Shown here: positions 19,956 to 25,749 of the stretch, piece after piece | Position numbering within the stretch: position 1 is the stretch's first letter | Layout of the letters: each line of letters starts with the position of its first letter | NCBI RefSeq assembly: GCF_900168015.1 | Contig: NZ_FUYR01000002.1 | Span: 516,932-580,931, forward strand | Length of the DNA: 64,000 nt | Direction of reading: 5' to 3' | From: Daejeonella lutea | GTDB taxonomy: Bacteria; Bacteroidota; Bacteroidia; Sphingobacteriales; Sphingobacteriaceae | Program-made: the position numbers and the translations under genes | Notes under the pieces: generated by a model | Seen by the model: the letters and a program-made list of their open reading frames with translations, nothing else | Databases searched by the model: none | What the model was told of the DNA's origin: nothing

Positions 19956-22955
19956 CTATAATTTTCTCTTCACTTCAACCTGCTCATACGACTCAACGAT
20001 ATCTCCAACCTCAATATTGTTGAAATTATAGATGTTCAAACCGCATTCGTATCCTGTAGCAACTTCTTTAACATCGTCTTTGAAACGCTTAAGCGATGCC
20101 AGTTCACCTGTATGGATCACTACACCATCGCGGATGATCCGGATCTTGCTGTTACGGGTAATCTTACCATCAAGGACCATACAACCGGCGATTGTACCAA
20201 CTTTAGTAATCTTGAACACTTCGCGAATCTCTACGTTTGAAGTGATTTTCTCTTCAAATTCAGGATCAAGCATACCTTCCATCGCAGCTTTAACTTCATT
20301 GATTGCATCGTAGATAATGGAGTATAAACGGATATCGATCTGCTCAGCTTCAGCAAGCTTACGCGCACTTTGCGAAGGACGAACCTGGAAACCAATGATA
20401 ATTGCATCAGAAGCTGAAGCCAGCAATACATCCGACTCCGATATCTGTCCAACTGATTTATGAATAATATTAACCTGGATCTGCTCAGTAGAAAGCTTCA
20501 GCAATGAATCGGACAATGCTTCAATCGATCCATCCACGTCACCTTTTACAATCACGTTAAGTTCCTTGAAGTTACCGATCGCTAAACGACGGCCGATTTC
20601 ATCAAGTGTAATGTGTTTCTGAGTACGTAATCCCTGTTCGCGTTGTAATTGTAGTCTCTTGTTTGCAACCTGACGAGCCTCAACTTCACTTTCCATCACG
20701 TTAAACTTATCACCTGATGTTGGTGCTCCCTGCATACCCAAAACCTGTACAGGTGTTGACGGTCCGGCATGGTCTACCTTAACTCCACGCTCATTGTGCA
20801 AAGCTTTTACTCTTCCTGAATAACCTCCGGCAAGAATCGGATCTCCGACCCTTAGCGTGCCTGCCTGAATTAGAACTGTTGTAACTATACCGCGACCTTT
20901 GTCAAGTGCTGCTTCGATCACAGTACCGACTGCACGTTTATCAGGGTTTGCAGTAAGCTCAAGAAGATCAGCTTCAAGCAATACTTTCTCTAAAAGAAGG
21001 TCGATACCCGCTCCGGTTTTACCAGAGATTTCCTGACTTTGATATTTACCGCCCCAGTCTTCAACCAGAATGTTCATAGCTGAAAGCTGTTCGCGGATCT
21101 TATCAGAATTGGCACCGGGTTTATCCACCTTACTAAATGCAAATACGATTGGAACGTTTGCTGCCTGAGCGTGATTAATAGCTTCCCGTGTTTGTGGCAT
21201 CACACTATCATCCGCCGCAATTACGATAATTGCAATATCGGTTACCTTAGCACCACGCGCCCGCATCGCCGTAAAGGCTTCGTGACCCGGTGTATCTAAG
21301 AATGTAATTTTGCGTTCGTTTTCGAGGGTTACTTCGTAAGCACCAATGTGCTGGGTAATTCCCCCCGCCTCTCCGGCAATAACGTTTGTCTTACGTACAA
21401 AATCCAGGAGTGAAGTTTTACCATGATCGACGTGTCCCATTACAGTAACAATCGGCGCTCTTGGAATTAATGAGCCTTCCTCGTCAGCTTCTTCAAGCAG
21501 ACCAATTTCTTCATCTTCTGGTTTAACAAACTCTACTTCATAGCCAAACTCATCGGCAACGATAGTAAGAGTTTCTGCATCTAATCTTTGATTGATAGAA
21601 ACGAACATTCCAAGACTCATACAGGTCGAGATGATCTGTGTAACAGGAACGTCAAGCATTAATGCTAACTCATTTGCCGTAACAAACTCCGTAACCTTAA
21701 TGGTCTTGGATTGCATTTCCAGCTCCATCGCTGCTTCTTCCGCAGTTTGGGCTACATCATCACGCTTCTGGCGACGAAGTTTAGCACGCTGTGCAAATTT
21801 CCCCGATTTACCCGCACCGCTCAAACGAGCAAGTGTAGCTTTAATCTGGTCTTGTATTTCTTTATCGGTTGGTTCAGCTTTAGGGCCGCTGTCAGTACGT
21901 GGCTTGTTCCTGAAATCGGGACGTACGCCACCTCCGGCTGTGCCCTGCCCGGGACGTGTATTTCTGAAATCCGGGCGGTTACCCTGATAGCCACCACCTG
22001 CTCCGGGAGCTGAGGCTGGACGAGCACCAGGCTGTTGACCTGGCTGAGTAGCCTGACCTGGCTGACCAGGAGCATTATCTTTACGTTTGCGTTTGCGTTT
22101 ATGATCGGCACCTGCTGCACTGGATGAAGAAGCTACCGGTTGGCCACGACGTGCAGGACTAACTGGCAACTCAATCCTTCCAATAACATTCGGACCGGTT
22201 AATCGCTCAGCCTTTGCACGTATTACCGTTGCATCGGGGTTTCCCTCCTGAGTATTGGGTCTGTTTTCTTGTTTGTCTTCTGCTGGTGCTGTTACTGATT
22301 CCGCAGCTGGCTGAGCTTTTTCAACTTCTGCAGCAGGCTGTACAGCTTCTGCAGGTTTCTCAACTTCTTTAACTGGCTCAGCAGCGGGCTGCGCTTTAGG
22401 TTCTTCAGACTTTACCGGCTCGGCAGCTTTTGGGGCTGCAGGAACTTCAGGCTTAATTTCCGCAGCTGGTTTGTCTGCCTCTGAAGGTTTTTTATCAGGG
22501 CGTGTCTTTGAATTCAGATCATCTAAATTGATCTTTCCAACAATCTTGACCCCTGGCAATGCACCATCATCCGCCTTTGGTTTCTCAGCCGCCGCTTCTG
22601 CCGGAGCAGGCTTTGGCTTTTCAACTATCGGCGGAGTATAAGAACTTACATTTTTGATCAGGATCTCCTCTTGTTCAAAATCCTTTGAACGTGTCGGTTG
22701 CTCAACTCTTTCGGGTGTAACAGGCAGATCATCGCGACGGATCTTACCAATCACAATTTGTTTGGCCTCTTCCTTTACGATCTTATCACCCTGATACTCC
22801 TTTAAAAGAACTTCATACATCTCATCGGTGAGCTTAGTATTCGGACGGGCTTCGACTTTGAAGCCCTTTTTCCCTAAAAACTCAACCGCTGTAGATAAAC
22901 CGATATTCAGCTCCTTCGCAGTTTTAAGTAAATTTGTGCTTTTACCTTCTGACAT
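19956..22955 (-). CDS. infB: Translation initiation factor IF-2
   Basis: This 999-residue protein has an N-terminal IF2_N segment, a long Ala/Pro/Glu- and then Gly/Arg-rich linker (about 100-390), a second IF2_N helix bundle, the G domain, and domains II-IV. G1 is GHVDHGKTS near 505 and G3 is DTPGHEAF near 555. The G4 motif reads SKVD at residues 608-611 instead of the usual NKxD. IF-2 delivers initiator tRNA to the 30S subunit. It is the last gene of the rimP-nusA-infB operon. A TACTTTTG element at 22984-22991 may give it an extra promoter. Confidence 0.97.
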
Positions 22956-23114: not shown

Positions 23115-24350
23115 TTACTCAAATTCAGATCTTAGGATTTCCATTACATCCTTCACTGTGTTATCTTCCAGATCAGTACGTTTTACCAGCTCATCAACTG
23201 TTAATGCTAAAACTGACTTCGCTGTATCCAGCCCAACACGCTTGAACTCGTCGATGATCCAACCTTCGATTTCGTCTGAGAATTCTTCGATATCCACATC
23301 TTCATCGTCTTCATGTGCTTCACGGTATACATCAATCTCGTATCCTGTTAATTTACCAGCTAGCTTGATGTTGTGTCCACCACGGCCGATAGCCAGGGAA
23401 ACCTGATCTGGTTTTAAGTAAACAGCTGCCCGCTTTTCCTCATCATCAAGCTTGATACTTGTGATCTTCGCAGGACTTAAAGCACGCTGGATATACAAGG
23501 AAATATTATTAGTGTAGTTTATAACGTCAATATTTTCATTCTTCAATTCACGCACAATTCCATGGATCCTTGAACCCTTCATACCCACACACGCGCCAAC
23601 CGGATCGATCCTGTCATCATATGATTCAACTGCAACTTTAGCGCGCTCTCCTGGCTCGCGGACAATCTTCTTGATGGTTATTAATCCGTCAAAGATCTCA
23701 GGAACTTCCATCTCGAACAGGCGTTGCAAGAACTCTGGTGCAGTACGTGAAATAATGATCTTAGGGTTGCCGTTCAACATCTCAACTTTGTCGATTATCG
23801 CGCGTACAGAATCTCCTTTTTTGAAGTAATCGGCAGGAATCTGTTCGGTTTTAGGGAGTAAAAGCTCATTGCCTTCATCATCCAAAACAAGAGTTTCTTT
23901 CTTCCAAACCTGGTAAACCTCTCCGGTAACAATCTCGCCTACGCGATCCTTGTACTTCTTAAAAATCTCATCCTTTTCAAGCTCAAGAATTTTTGAAACA
24001 AGAGTCTGGCGTGCAGCAAGTATCGCCCTGCGGCCAAAGCTCTCCAGCGTAATCTGCTCAATATAATCATCGCCTACTTCCAGGTCAGGATCAATTGCCT
24101 GTGCTTCTGCCAATTCAATCTCCAGATCATCGTCTTCAGAAAATCCATCTTCCATTACAGTACGCGTACGCCAGATTTCCAAATCCCCGTTATCCGGATT
24201 AACGATTATGTCACAATTCTCATCGTTGCCGTATCGCTTACGCAACATGCTGCGGAATACTTCTTCCAACACACTAATAACCGTAGGACGGTCAATATTC
24301 TTGAAGTCCTTGAACTCCTGGAATGAATCGATTAAATTAATATTGCTCAT
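23115..24350 (-). CDS. nusA: Transcription termination/antitermination factor NusA
   Basis: This 411-residue protein has the RNA polymerase-binding N-terminal domain, S1 domain (about 135-200), KH1 (GMKGSRIHGIVRELKNENIDV) and KH2 (AIGRGGHNIKLAGKLTGYEI), then a short acidic linker and helical tail. The length and lack of the duplicated acidic repeats of E. coli NusA are usual for Bacteroidota. It modulates RNA polymerase pausing and intrinsic termination, which matters because its own operon carries a leader hairpin. It starts 31 bp after rimP. Confidence 0.97.
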   Translation of the reverse strand: MSNINLIDSFQEFKDFKNIDRPTVISVLEEVFRSMLRKRYGNDENCDIIVNPDNGDLEIWRTRTVMEDGFSEDDDLEIELAEAQAIDPDLEVGDDYIEQITLESFGRRAILAARQTLVSKILELEKDEIFKKYKDRVGEIVTGEVYQVWKKETLVLDDEGNELLLPKTEQIPADYFKKGDSVRAIIDKVEMLNGNPKIIISRTAPEFLQRLFEMEVPEIFDGLITIKKIVREPGERAKVAVESYDDRIDPVGACVGMKGSRIHGIVRELKNENIDVINYTNNISLYIQRALSPAKITSIKLDDEEKRAAVYLKPDQVSLAIGRGGHNIKLAGKLTGYEIDVYREAHEDDEDVDIEEFSDEIEGWIIDEFKRVGLDTAKSVLALTVDELVKRTDLEDNTVKDVMEILRSEFE

Positions 24351-24381: not shown

Positions 24382-24846
24382 TTATTTAAAACTCACTAAA
24401 ACTTTTGTTTCTGTTATATCATTAAAAGGAATTGCATTCTGAACCAAAACTGCTTTCTTCCCTTTTTCTTTAATGTTTTCTTCTATCGTAATGCCTGAAT
24501 CGTCGGCTGAGATCAGCTTACCCTCACGCTTTGTTCCGTCAGAGAGCTTCACACTCAACGAACGGTTTATATTTTTCTGATACTGCCTTAAAGATTTTAA
24601 AGGTGTGTCCAGACCCGGAGAAGAAACTTCCAAATTGTAGGCTTGCTCAATGGTATTCTCTTCTTCCAGATGAAAACCAACATGGCGGCTTATTGCCACG
24701 CAATCTGTAATCGCTACCCCCTTATCACCATCTACCAGTATAGAAAGAACTCCCCCGCCGCTCATCTGAACGTCGACCAGGAACAGATCCGGACGATCCG
24801 CAATCTTTTCTTCTACCAGTTCAATAACCCTCTTCTCTATGTTCAT
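24382..24846 (-). CDS. rimP: Ribosome maturation factor RimP
   Basis: This 154-residue protein has the RimP N-terminal domain (LVDVQMSGGGVLSILVDGDKGVAITDC, here with the V-D-K pattern of the family) and the conserved YNLEVSSPGLDTPL motif. An SH3-like C-terminal domain follows. RimP aids 30S assembly. It is the first gene of rimP-nusA-infB, the standard bacterial order. The leader between its promoter and start codon contains a strong terminator-like hairpin. Confidence 0.95.
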   Translation of the reverse strand: MNIEKRVIELVEEKIADRPDLFLVDVQMSGGGVLSILVDGDKGVAITDCVAISRHVGFHLEEENTIEQAYNLEVSSPGLDTPLKSLRQYQKNINRSLSVKLSDGTKREGKLISADDSGITIEENIKEKGKKAVLVQNAIPFNDITETKVLVSFK

Positions 24847-24882: not shown

Positions 24883-24914
24883 AAAAAAAGAGCCCCGATA
24901 ATGTCGGGGCTCTT
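24883..24914 (-). terminator. Terminator-like hairpin in the rimP-nusA-infB leader
   Basis: On the minus strand GAGCCCCGA pairs with TCGGGGCTC (24904-24912 and 24890-24898) across a 5-nt loop and is followed by a run of seven Ts. It lies between the operon promoter and rimP, so it would stop most transcripts after about 40 nt unless it is bypassed. No gene precedes it that it could serve. Confidence 0.8.
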
Positions 24915-24927
24915 CTCAGATCGGATG

Positions 24928-24958
24928 CAAATATAATAAAACAATTTGTGTTTACAAA
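24928..24958 (-). promoter_or_regulatory. Promoter of rimP-nusA-infB
   Basis: Minus-strand TTTG (24955-24958), a 19-bp spacer and TATATTTG (24928-24935) match the Bacteroidota promoter consensus exactly. The inferred transcript start is about 24922, only about 8 nt before the leader hairpin. Confidence 0.78.
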
Positions 24959-25020: not shown

Positions 25021-25070
25021 TATTTCATTTGCCGTTCATTAACCGTTCATTTGCCGTTCATTTGCCGTTG
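25021..25070. repeat. 11-bp direct tandem repeat
   Basis: Units CCGTTCATTAA, CCGTTCATTTG, CCGTTCATTTG and a partial CCGTTG stand in exact register at 25032-25070, preceded by a degenerate unit (25021-25031). This is the most structured part of the roughly 340-bp stretch between the rimP promoter and the lipoprotein gene at 25297. The rest of that stretch shows only a weak TCCGGT/ACCGGA inverted repeat around 25150-25180 and no convincing frame. Confidence 0.7.
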
Positions 25071-25296: not shown

Positions 25297-25749
25297 TCAC
25301 TTAATTTTGAATGTGAACTCGAGAAAACCGCCTGTGGGAGAAAGGTCTCGCTTTGAAATTATATCTTCAGGCTCTTCCAGCAGGTCTTTGGTATAACAGC
25401 GCGAAAAGTACGCCTTGCCTTTTGTGAAGCCGCCCGCAGGAATAAATTCCACCAGGCTATCGGTTACGTTATATGATCCGTCTATTGCGGGTTGAAAATC
25501 CCTCATTTCCTTGTCCGCGATTTCTTCATAAACTGCAAAGAAGTCTTTCCACTGCTCAGATCCCAGGGAATCTGCACGCAATTCCTCGGTAATATTTAAG
25601 GGAATGTTAAAAAGTTCAACTGCTGAACTGTCCGCTGATAGCCTCAGCTTTATCCCAGAATTAGCTGTTTTGGGTGTTTCGGTCCCGCCGCAACCGATTA
25701 GTGTTAGAAAAATAATTGCCTTAATGTAAAACAGATGTTTCAACTTCAT
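25297..25749 (-). CDS. Hypothetical lipoprotein
   Basis: This 150-residue protein has a lipoprotein signal ending LIGCGGTETP, so it should be acylated at the cysteine and sit in the outer membrane or periplasm. The mature part is acidic, with no family I recognise; a DSLVEFIPAGGF stretch suggests a beta-rich fold. It is divergent from the holin-like gene, with a 32-bp gap. Nothing in the context fixes its role. Confidence 0.75.
   Translation of the reverse strand: MKLKHLFYIKAIIFLTLIGCGGTETPKTANSGIKLRLSADSSAVELFNIPLNITEELRADSLGSEQWKDFFAVYEEIADKEMRDFQPAIDGSYNVTDSLVEFIPAGGFTKGKAYFSRCYTKDLLEEPEDIISKRDLSPTGGFLEFTFKIK

Follow-up and report, generated by a model that had tools for sequence, protein, structure and literature searches.

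The closest described system is the rimP-leader. Naville and Gautheret (PMC2965389), who left its controller open in 2010, presented it as the most ubiquitous attenuator. As described there, the rimP-leader has the motif GGGc...gCCC, no antiterminator and a terminator-to-gene distance of 4-130. NusA is proposed in that paper as the best candidate for the controller, RimP is also named as a possible regulator, and the rimP leader of Bacillus subtilis is given as 180 nt long. In B. subtilis, NusA reportedly autoregulates its synthesis by stimulating termination in its own leader (Mondal et al. 2016, as cited in PMC12288461), and Nus-dependent terminators are described as having weak base pairs or distal U tracts with interruptions (PMC8060035). 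For Escherichia coli, terminators t1 and t2 are described before rimP (PMC6511841), the title of a reference in the same paper places NusA feedback at the polymerase beta flap, and a rimP 5' UTR fusion is described as lower in a Rho mutant (PMC7815308).

For the Bacteroidota, a -7 promoter consensus TAnnTTTG is given in PMC9723704. The same paper reports an expressed structured 5' element before rimP of Flavobacterium psychrophilum that is conserved in other Flavobacteriaceae and has no Rfam hit; this is very probably the same element as the one analyzed here. Compact leaders are normal in the phylum, as the median 5' UTRs listed in that paper are 24 nt in F. psychrophilum and 32 nt in B. thetaiotaomicron. 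Words beginning with 'Bacteroid' are absent from the main text of PMC2965389, and words beginning with 'nusA' are absent from the accessible text of the B. thetaiotaomicron transcriptome paper PMC7366714. Our literature search, with supplements and most subscription papers outside its reach, yielded no Bacteroidota rimP or nusA attenuator beyond the mention in F. psychrophilum.

Here, we describe the leader of rimP-nusA-infB in Daejeonella lutea, a variant of the known rimP-leader attenuator. In both, the 5' UTR of the operon contains an intrinsic terminator and no antiterminator is visible, and the terminator-to-gene distance in D. lutea, 36 nt, falls within the published range (PMC2965389). 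In B. subtilis, too, the NusA-encoding operon has a 5' leader with an intrinsic terminator (PMC12288461). Unlike the rimP-leader as described in PMC2965389, the hairpin in Bacteroidia sits close to the promoter; in contrast to the 180-nt leader of B. subtilis, the D. lutea hairpin follows the likely transcript start by some 10 nt, and its dependence on NusA is putative. The element holds the same operon position as the gammaproteobacterial rimP leader of Rfam, RF01770, but is not a member of that family (19.0 bits vs a gathering score of 47), and Rfam models gave only weak matches, none at gathering level, in the window, i.e., the whole stretch of 64,000 nt of D. lutea DNA that was analyzed.

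Leader anatomy in the Daejeonella lutea window

The minus strand of the window encodes rimP (24382-24846; NF002531, 139.6 bits vs a cut-off of 123), nusA (23115-24350; TIGR01953, 387.2 bits vs 253.4) and infB for IF-2 (19956-22955; TIGR00487, 790.6 bits vs 424.4), with all three identities based on passing curated NCBIfam cut-offs. Upstream of rimP on the same strand, a -33 promoter element TTTG (24955-24958) can be read from the sequence, followed after 19 nt by the -7 box TATATTTG (24928-24935), which fits the Bacteroidota consensus TAnnTTTG. From promoter spacing only, we infer a transcript start at 24920-24924 of the minus strand. The terminator hairpin GAGCCCCGA-CATTA-TCGGGGCTC (24890-24912, minus strand; sequence and RNAfold) has a perfect, GC-rich stem of 9 bp that begins 15 nt past TATATTTG. 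It is composed of the 5' arm GAGCCCCGA (24904-24912), the 5-nt loop CATTA (24899-24903) and the 3' arm TCGGGGCTC (24890-24898), and a T7 tract (24883-24889) lies directly 3' of the stem. The promoter TTTG-N19-TATATTTG, the strong hairpin and the T7 tract that an earlier note on this DNA had recognized at 24883-24958 are thereby confirmed, and placed on the minus strand. The same note had put rimP about 40 nt beyond the hairpin and T tract; the ATG, at 24846, follows 36 nt downstream of the T tract.

The next upstream ORF of at least 70 aa on the same strand ends at 25297, so that no ORF of this size lies between promoter and hairpin, in agreement with the earlier note, in which no gene precedes the hairpin. 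From the box to the last base of the T tract, the window leader contains neither ATG nor GTG nor TTG, and there is no second promoter box between hairpin and rimP ATG in the window. According to RNAfold, the 82-nt window leader folds at -28.7 kcal/mol (z -2.39, with 4/200 shuffles folding equally well) and the hairpin alone at -17.0 kcal/mol with a mean stem probability of 0.9995. Direct repeats with an 11-nt unit (CCGTTCATTTG-like) are located at 25030-25070, between the rimP promoter and the next gene upstream. The latter, ORF 25297-25749, encodes a lipoprotein-like sequence of 150 aa with no NCBIfam match.

This ORF runs in the same direction as rimP, and the hairpin could be the terminator of such an upstream gene, located downstream of the rimP promoter by accident. 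We regard this as hardly probable at all, because the distance between hairpin and promoter is steady (SD 3.9 nt vs 12.6 nt on the gene side, 110 family leaders), opposite-strand ORFs adjoin the hairpin in several rimP-less genomes, and transcripts from the rimP promoter must meet the hairpin regardless.

The frequency of such arrangements was determined in the window together with 400 kb from elsewhere on its contig, with a hairpin-T tract sought within 35 nt of a box. These sequences contain 421 TAnnTTTG boxes, 41 of them with TTG at -33 spacing, and four of the 421 are followed by a hairpin-T tract within 35 nt. Among these four pairs, a -33 TTG is combined with a score of at least 18 in the rimP leader only. 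Four random 400-kb sequences contained 1, 0, 1, and 0 box-hairpin pairs, and the window hairpin sequence occurs at a single place in the genome. A first terminator scan of the 400 kb (16 hits) was discarded as too strict and replaced by a looser rescan. Elsewhere in the window, another TAAGTTTG box (minus strand, around 45651) is followed after 14 nt by the hairpin CCTTCCGGA-ACT-TCCGGGAGG and T7, without a -33 TTG.

Conservation of the layout and variation of the stem

The layout is neither due to chance nor peculiar to the D. lutea genome. Its presence in relatives, which the earlier note had suggested as a check, is evident from all 119 family leaders and from 62 of the 71 class leaders outside the family, each with box, hairpin, and T tract. 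The family sample comprised 121 genomes searched for RimP, of which the two without a match were dropped and the 119 with a match were all read; the class sample comprised 80 genomes, 74 with a RimP match and 71 of these outside the family. Five class genomes from the phylum search, with unread leaders, and G229, whose locus was not counted, were left out. The layout was absent from control regions 400-600 nt further upstream (0/118 in the family and 0/69 in the class, 0/187 together) and from shuffled leaders (0/119 and 0/71, respectively). A weaker or imperfect hairpin is in place in five of the 71 class genomes (G133, G140, G151, G173, G188), and four lack the hairpin while keeping rimP-nusA (G145, G160, G177, G196). 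G145 (L313) has a hairpin AAACGGG-ATTAAAA-CCCGTTT with a poor T tract between rimP and nusA. In the g8 genus, the RimP match contains one in-frame TGA in both sampled members (G007, G032; L108, L110). The layout test was passed by 43 of 49 named loci, which partly repeat the genomes above; the six failing loci belong to Prevotellaceae and display, by eye, a shorter AAAGGGAC...GTCCCTTT stem.

A TAnnTTTG box is located upstream of the hairpin in 110/110 family leaders of one set, and TTG at -33 spacing is found in 81/119 family and 43/62 class leaders. The distance from box to GC stem has a median of 15 nt and a range of 8-26 nt in the family, and is 10-30 nt in the 62 class leaders outside it. 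The combined range of 8-30 nt over 181 leaders comes from a search restricted to 35 nt; with no distance limit set, 63/71 class leaders have 10-31 nt. The short promoter-terminator distance, which the earlier note considered unusual, is hence a rule of the class. The commonest family hairpin has the exact form GAGGGGAC-N3-9-GTCCCCTC-TTTT and occurs in 32/121 genomes at one place each, always within ~100 nt upstream of rimP as judged by eye from the positions. Joint conservation of promoter, hairpin, and T tract throughout the class lends weight to the earlier note's reading of an attenuator, as do the single copy of the window hairpin in its genome and the occurrence of the commonest family form only beside rimP.

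Two other roles of the hairpin have to be weighed against this pattern. With its own promoter and terminator, the leader could release an RNA of ~40 nt that acts in trans as a small RNA, an alternative also raised in the earlier note. This is very improbable, given that loop length, loop sequence and hairpin flanks differ between genera, in contrast to a conserved stem, T tract, and position, and that no conserved single-stranded seed-like stretch was seen in the leaders. In the family, the hairpin lies within ~10 nt of the likely 5' end and might instead guard the operon mRNA against decay, with termination being incidental or absent. We give this explanation little credence, as protection requires no T tract and yet, of the 8 bases that follow the stem, 6-8 are T in 110/119 family leaders.

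Outside the class, 40/46 phylum genomes contain a hairpin-T tract no more than 200 nt from the RimP match, vs 3/46 shuffles and four upstream controls. A loose TAnnTTT box within 35 nt accompanies only 15 of these 40 hairpins. The complete layout is thus typical of the class, while terminators upstream of rimP are common throughout the phylum.

The 5' arm of the stem is G-rich in 106/106 family leaders outside the window's genus and in 59/62 class leaders, and most leaders of family and class (GAGGGGAC...GTCCCCTC) fit the motif GGGc...gCCC of the rimP-leader (PMC2965389). In contrast, the window and 11 of the 13 genomes of its genus reverse the arms (CCCCG...CGGGG), with a C-type or mixed 5' arm (GAGCCCCGA, GAGTCCCG, GAGCTCCG) in place of the G-rich arm; the exceptions, G042 and G056, carry GAGGGAAC. 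Arm reversal is not unique to this genus within the phylum, as the 46 leaders outside the class have a C-rich (7), G-rich (24) or balanced (9) 5' arm or no hairpin above threshold (6). Among 32 further strong terminators, found in 400 kb of the D. lutea genome, G-rich, C-rich, and balanced 5' arms occur in 12, 10, and 10 cases, respectively. In a RimP tree of 64 rows, all 21 C-type rows fall within one clade of 24 rows (support 99/95); of the three others in this clade, one is G-type (G042) and two are unscored, and at least two changes are needed. Named members of this clade are labelled Daejeonella, and some records bear other names. Counted from the base, stem positions 3-7 include G-C, C-G, and A-T types among the 33 different arm pairs of the family; the arms were chosen by pairing and percent paired is therefore not independent evidence. 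An alignment of 48 leaders at the DNA level with MAFFT failed to match C-type to G-type arms correctly and was rejected in favour of counting pairs per stem position.

Leaders before nusA in genomes without rimP

Six of the 80 class genomes have no RimP_N match. Four of them (G135, G143, G162, G175) were used to examine nusA and have promoter box and hairpin directly before this gene; G144 is an exception and G142 has no nusA match. The nusA loci of their families were then read, comprising seven genomes of f16, one of f24 and nine of the eleven of f43 (two f43 genomes had no nusA match); the family of G143 contains G143 alone. According to the RimP profile, rimP precedes nusA in only four of the genomes read, all from f43, and is missing there in the remaining thirteen; a whole-genome search with a RimP alignment including the f43 RimPs likewise found rimP in the four f43 genomes and none in the thirteen. 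A RimP match in G264 (13.2 bits, E 0.135, containing a stop) was taken as noise, and the sequence fetched for a weak match to the RimP C-domain in G135 (18.8 bits, cut-off 26.3) was not recognized by the RimP profile.

The thirteen rimP-less, nusA-bearing loci belong to three families (L311, L312, L314, L315, L320-L325, L327, L331, L332). All members of f16 (7/7) and f24 (1/1) have box and hairpin 16-25 nt apart before nusA. Five rimP-less f43 genomes have GGAGG...CCTCC-T before nusA at 51-60 nt behind the box, and in G263 this hairpin is located 319 nt before the nusA match, near a contig end. The four rimP-bearing f43 genomes have GGAGG...CCTCC-T before rimP, 26-32 nt behind the box. A short box-hairpin spacing is not obligatory, given the 51-60 nt in five f43 genomes. 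Completeness of the thirteen genomes is 61-100%, with three below 90% (G253, G255, G258; 61-84%).

Altogether, the leader precedes nusA, with no rimP between them, in 13/14 rimP-less class genomes with nusA; in the remaining one, G144 (0.5 Mb), neither rimP nor a hairpin before nusA was detected. The leader therefore seems to serve nusA-infB, tracking these genes rather than rimP, and probably controls nusA, the gene on which the earlier note had already focused. Its retention before nusA favours feedback by NusA of the kind known from B. subtilis. A promoter may, however, stay by inertia after loss of the first gene, with no selection needed, and only the kept stem and T tract argue for a function.

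Read-through of the terminator and the role of NusA

In folds of the leaders that extended 60 nt beyond the rimP start, or less far where the available sequence was shorter, stem probability of the terminator was at least 0.9 in 117/119 family and 61/62 class leaders (the exception being G185 with 0.02). Accordingly, no antiterminator was seen in these 119 family and 62 class leaders. The lack of a competing antiterminator and of a start codon before the T tract suggests that read-through is most likely set by a protein. We propose with moderate confidence that the element is a promoter-proximal attenuator of rimP-nusA-infB, in which read-through is most plausibly set by NusA and feeds back on nusA and infB. 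Briefly, polymerase would initiate a few nt upstream of the hairpin, and a fraction would halt in the T tract, thereby freeing an RNA of ~40 nt, while the remainder would continue into rimP-nusA-infB. The fraction reading through would depend on a polymerase-bound protein, most plausibly NusA, and the outcome would be negative feedback on nusA and infB. In five of the 110 family leaders, a further box lies downstream of the hairpin and ahead of the ATG, and transcription might there start beyond the hairpin.

The chief point against NusA feedback is the strength of the window terminator. Its stem is paired at 9/9 positions and its U7 tract is uninterrupted, different from the weak pairs or broken distal U tracts of Nus-dependent terminators, and by the B. 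subtilis rules it looks factor-independent (PMC8060035). This misfit is in accordance with an attenuator that responds to a controller other than NusA, i.e., NusG, IF2, RimP, sigma retention or nucleotide levels, and RimP was named as a possible regulator before NusA was preferred (PMC2965389). Such a controller is possible but unlikely. In the 13 genomes that have the leader without rimP, RimP is impossible as controller, and NusA feedback on the operon is known from B. subtilis (PMC12288461) and, by a title cited in PMC6511841, from E. coli. The B. subtilis case bears out the earlier note's statement that this operon is self-regulated in other bacteria.

It is conceivable that the terminator senses nothing and merely acts at fixed efficiency to lower or shield operon output. 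No antiterminator or sensing structure was seen in the folded leaders, and hairpin strength varies widely in the class, from -5.8 to -21.1 kcal/mol. Yet a weaker promoter would suffice for this purpose, whereas the hairpin is kept in 119/119 family and 62/71 class leaders and outlasts the loss of rimP, which makes a static terminator distinctly improbable.

A specific version of NusA feedback could follow from the position of the terminator within ~40 nt of the start. It would be reached while sigma may still occupy the beta flap that NusA needs; read-through would then hinge on timely loading of NusA, and the leader would sense free NusA without an RNA switch. We consider this gate rather unlikely as formulated. 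It fits a spacing that is fixed on the promoter side in most of the class, a leader that survives the loss of rimP, and a hairpin kept despite reversed arms in the window's genus. However, the spacing of 51-60 nt in the five f43 genomes speaks against a strict sigma-to-NusA gate. Feedback by NusA in its general form is the most likely function of the leader, and the interpretation of the earlier note is, overall, partly supported.

What is new here is the evidence for the target of the leader, provided by rimP-less genomes with the leader before nusA. Three families have lost rimP but retained the leader before nusA, which suggests nusA-infB as the target of the rimP-leader. The reversed stem arms of one genus represent a natural test of stem sequence versus structure alone. 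Together, rimP loss and arm reversal make the question of the controller of the rimP-leader directly testable.
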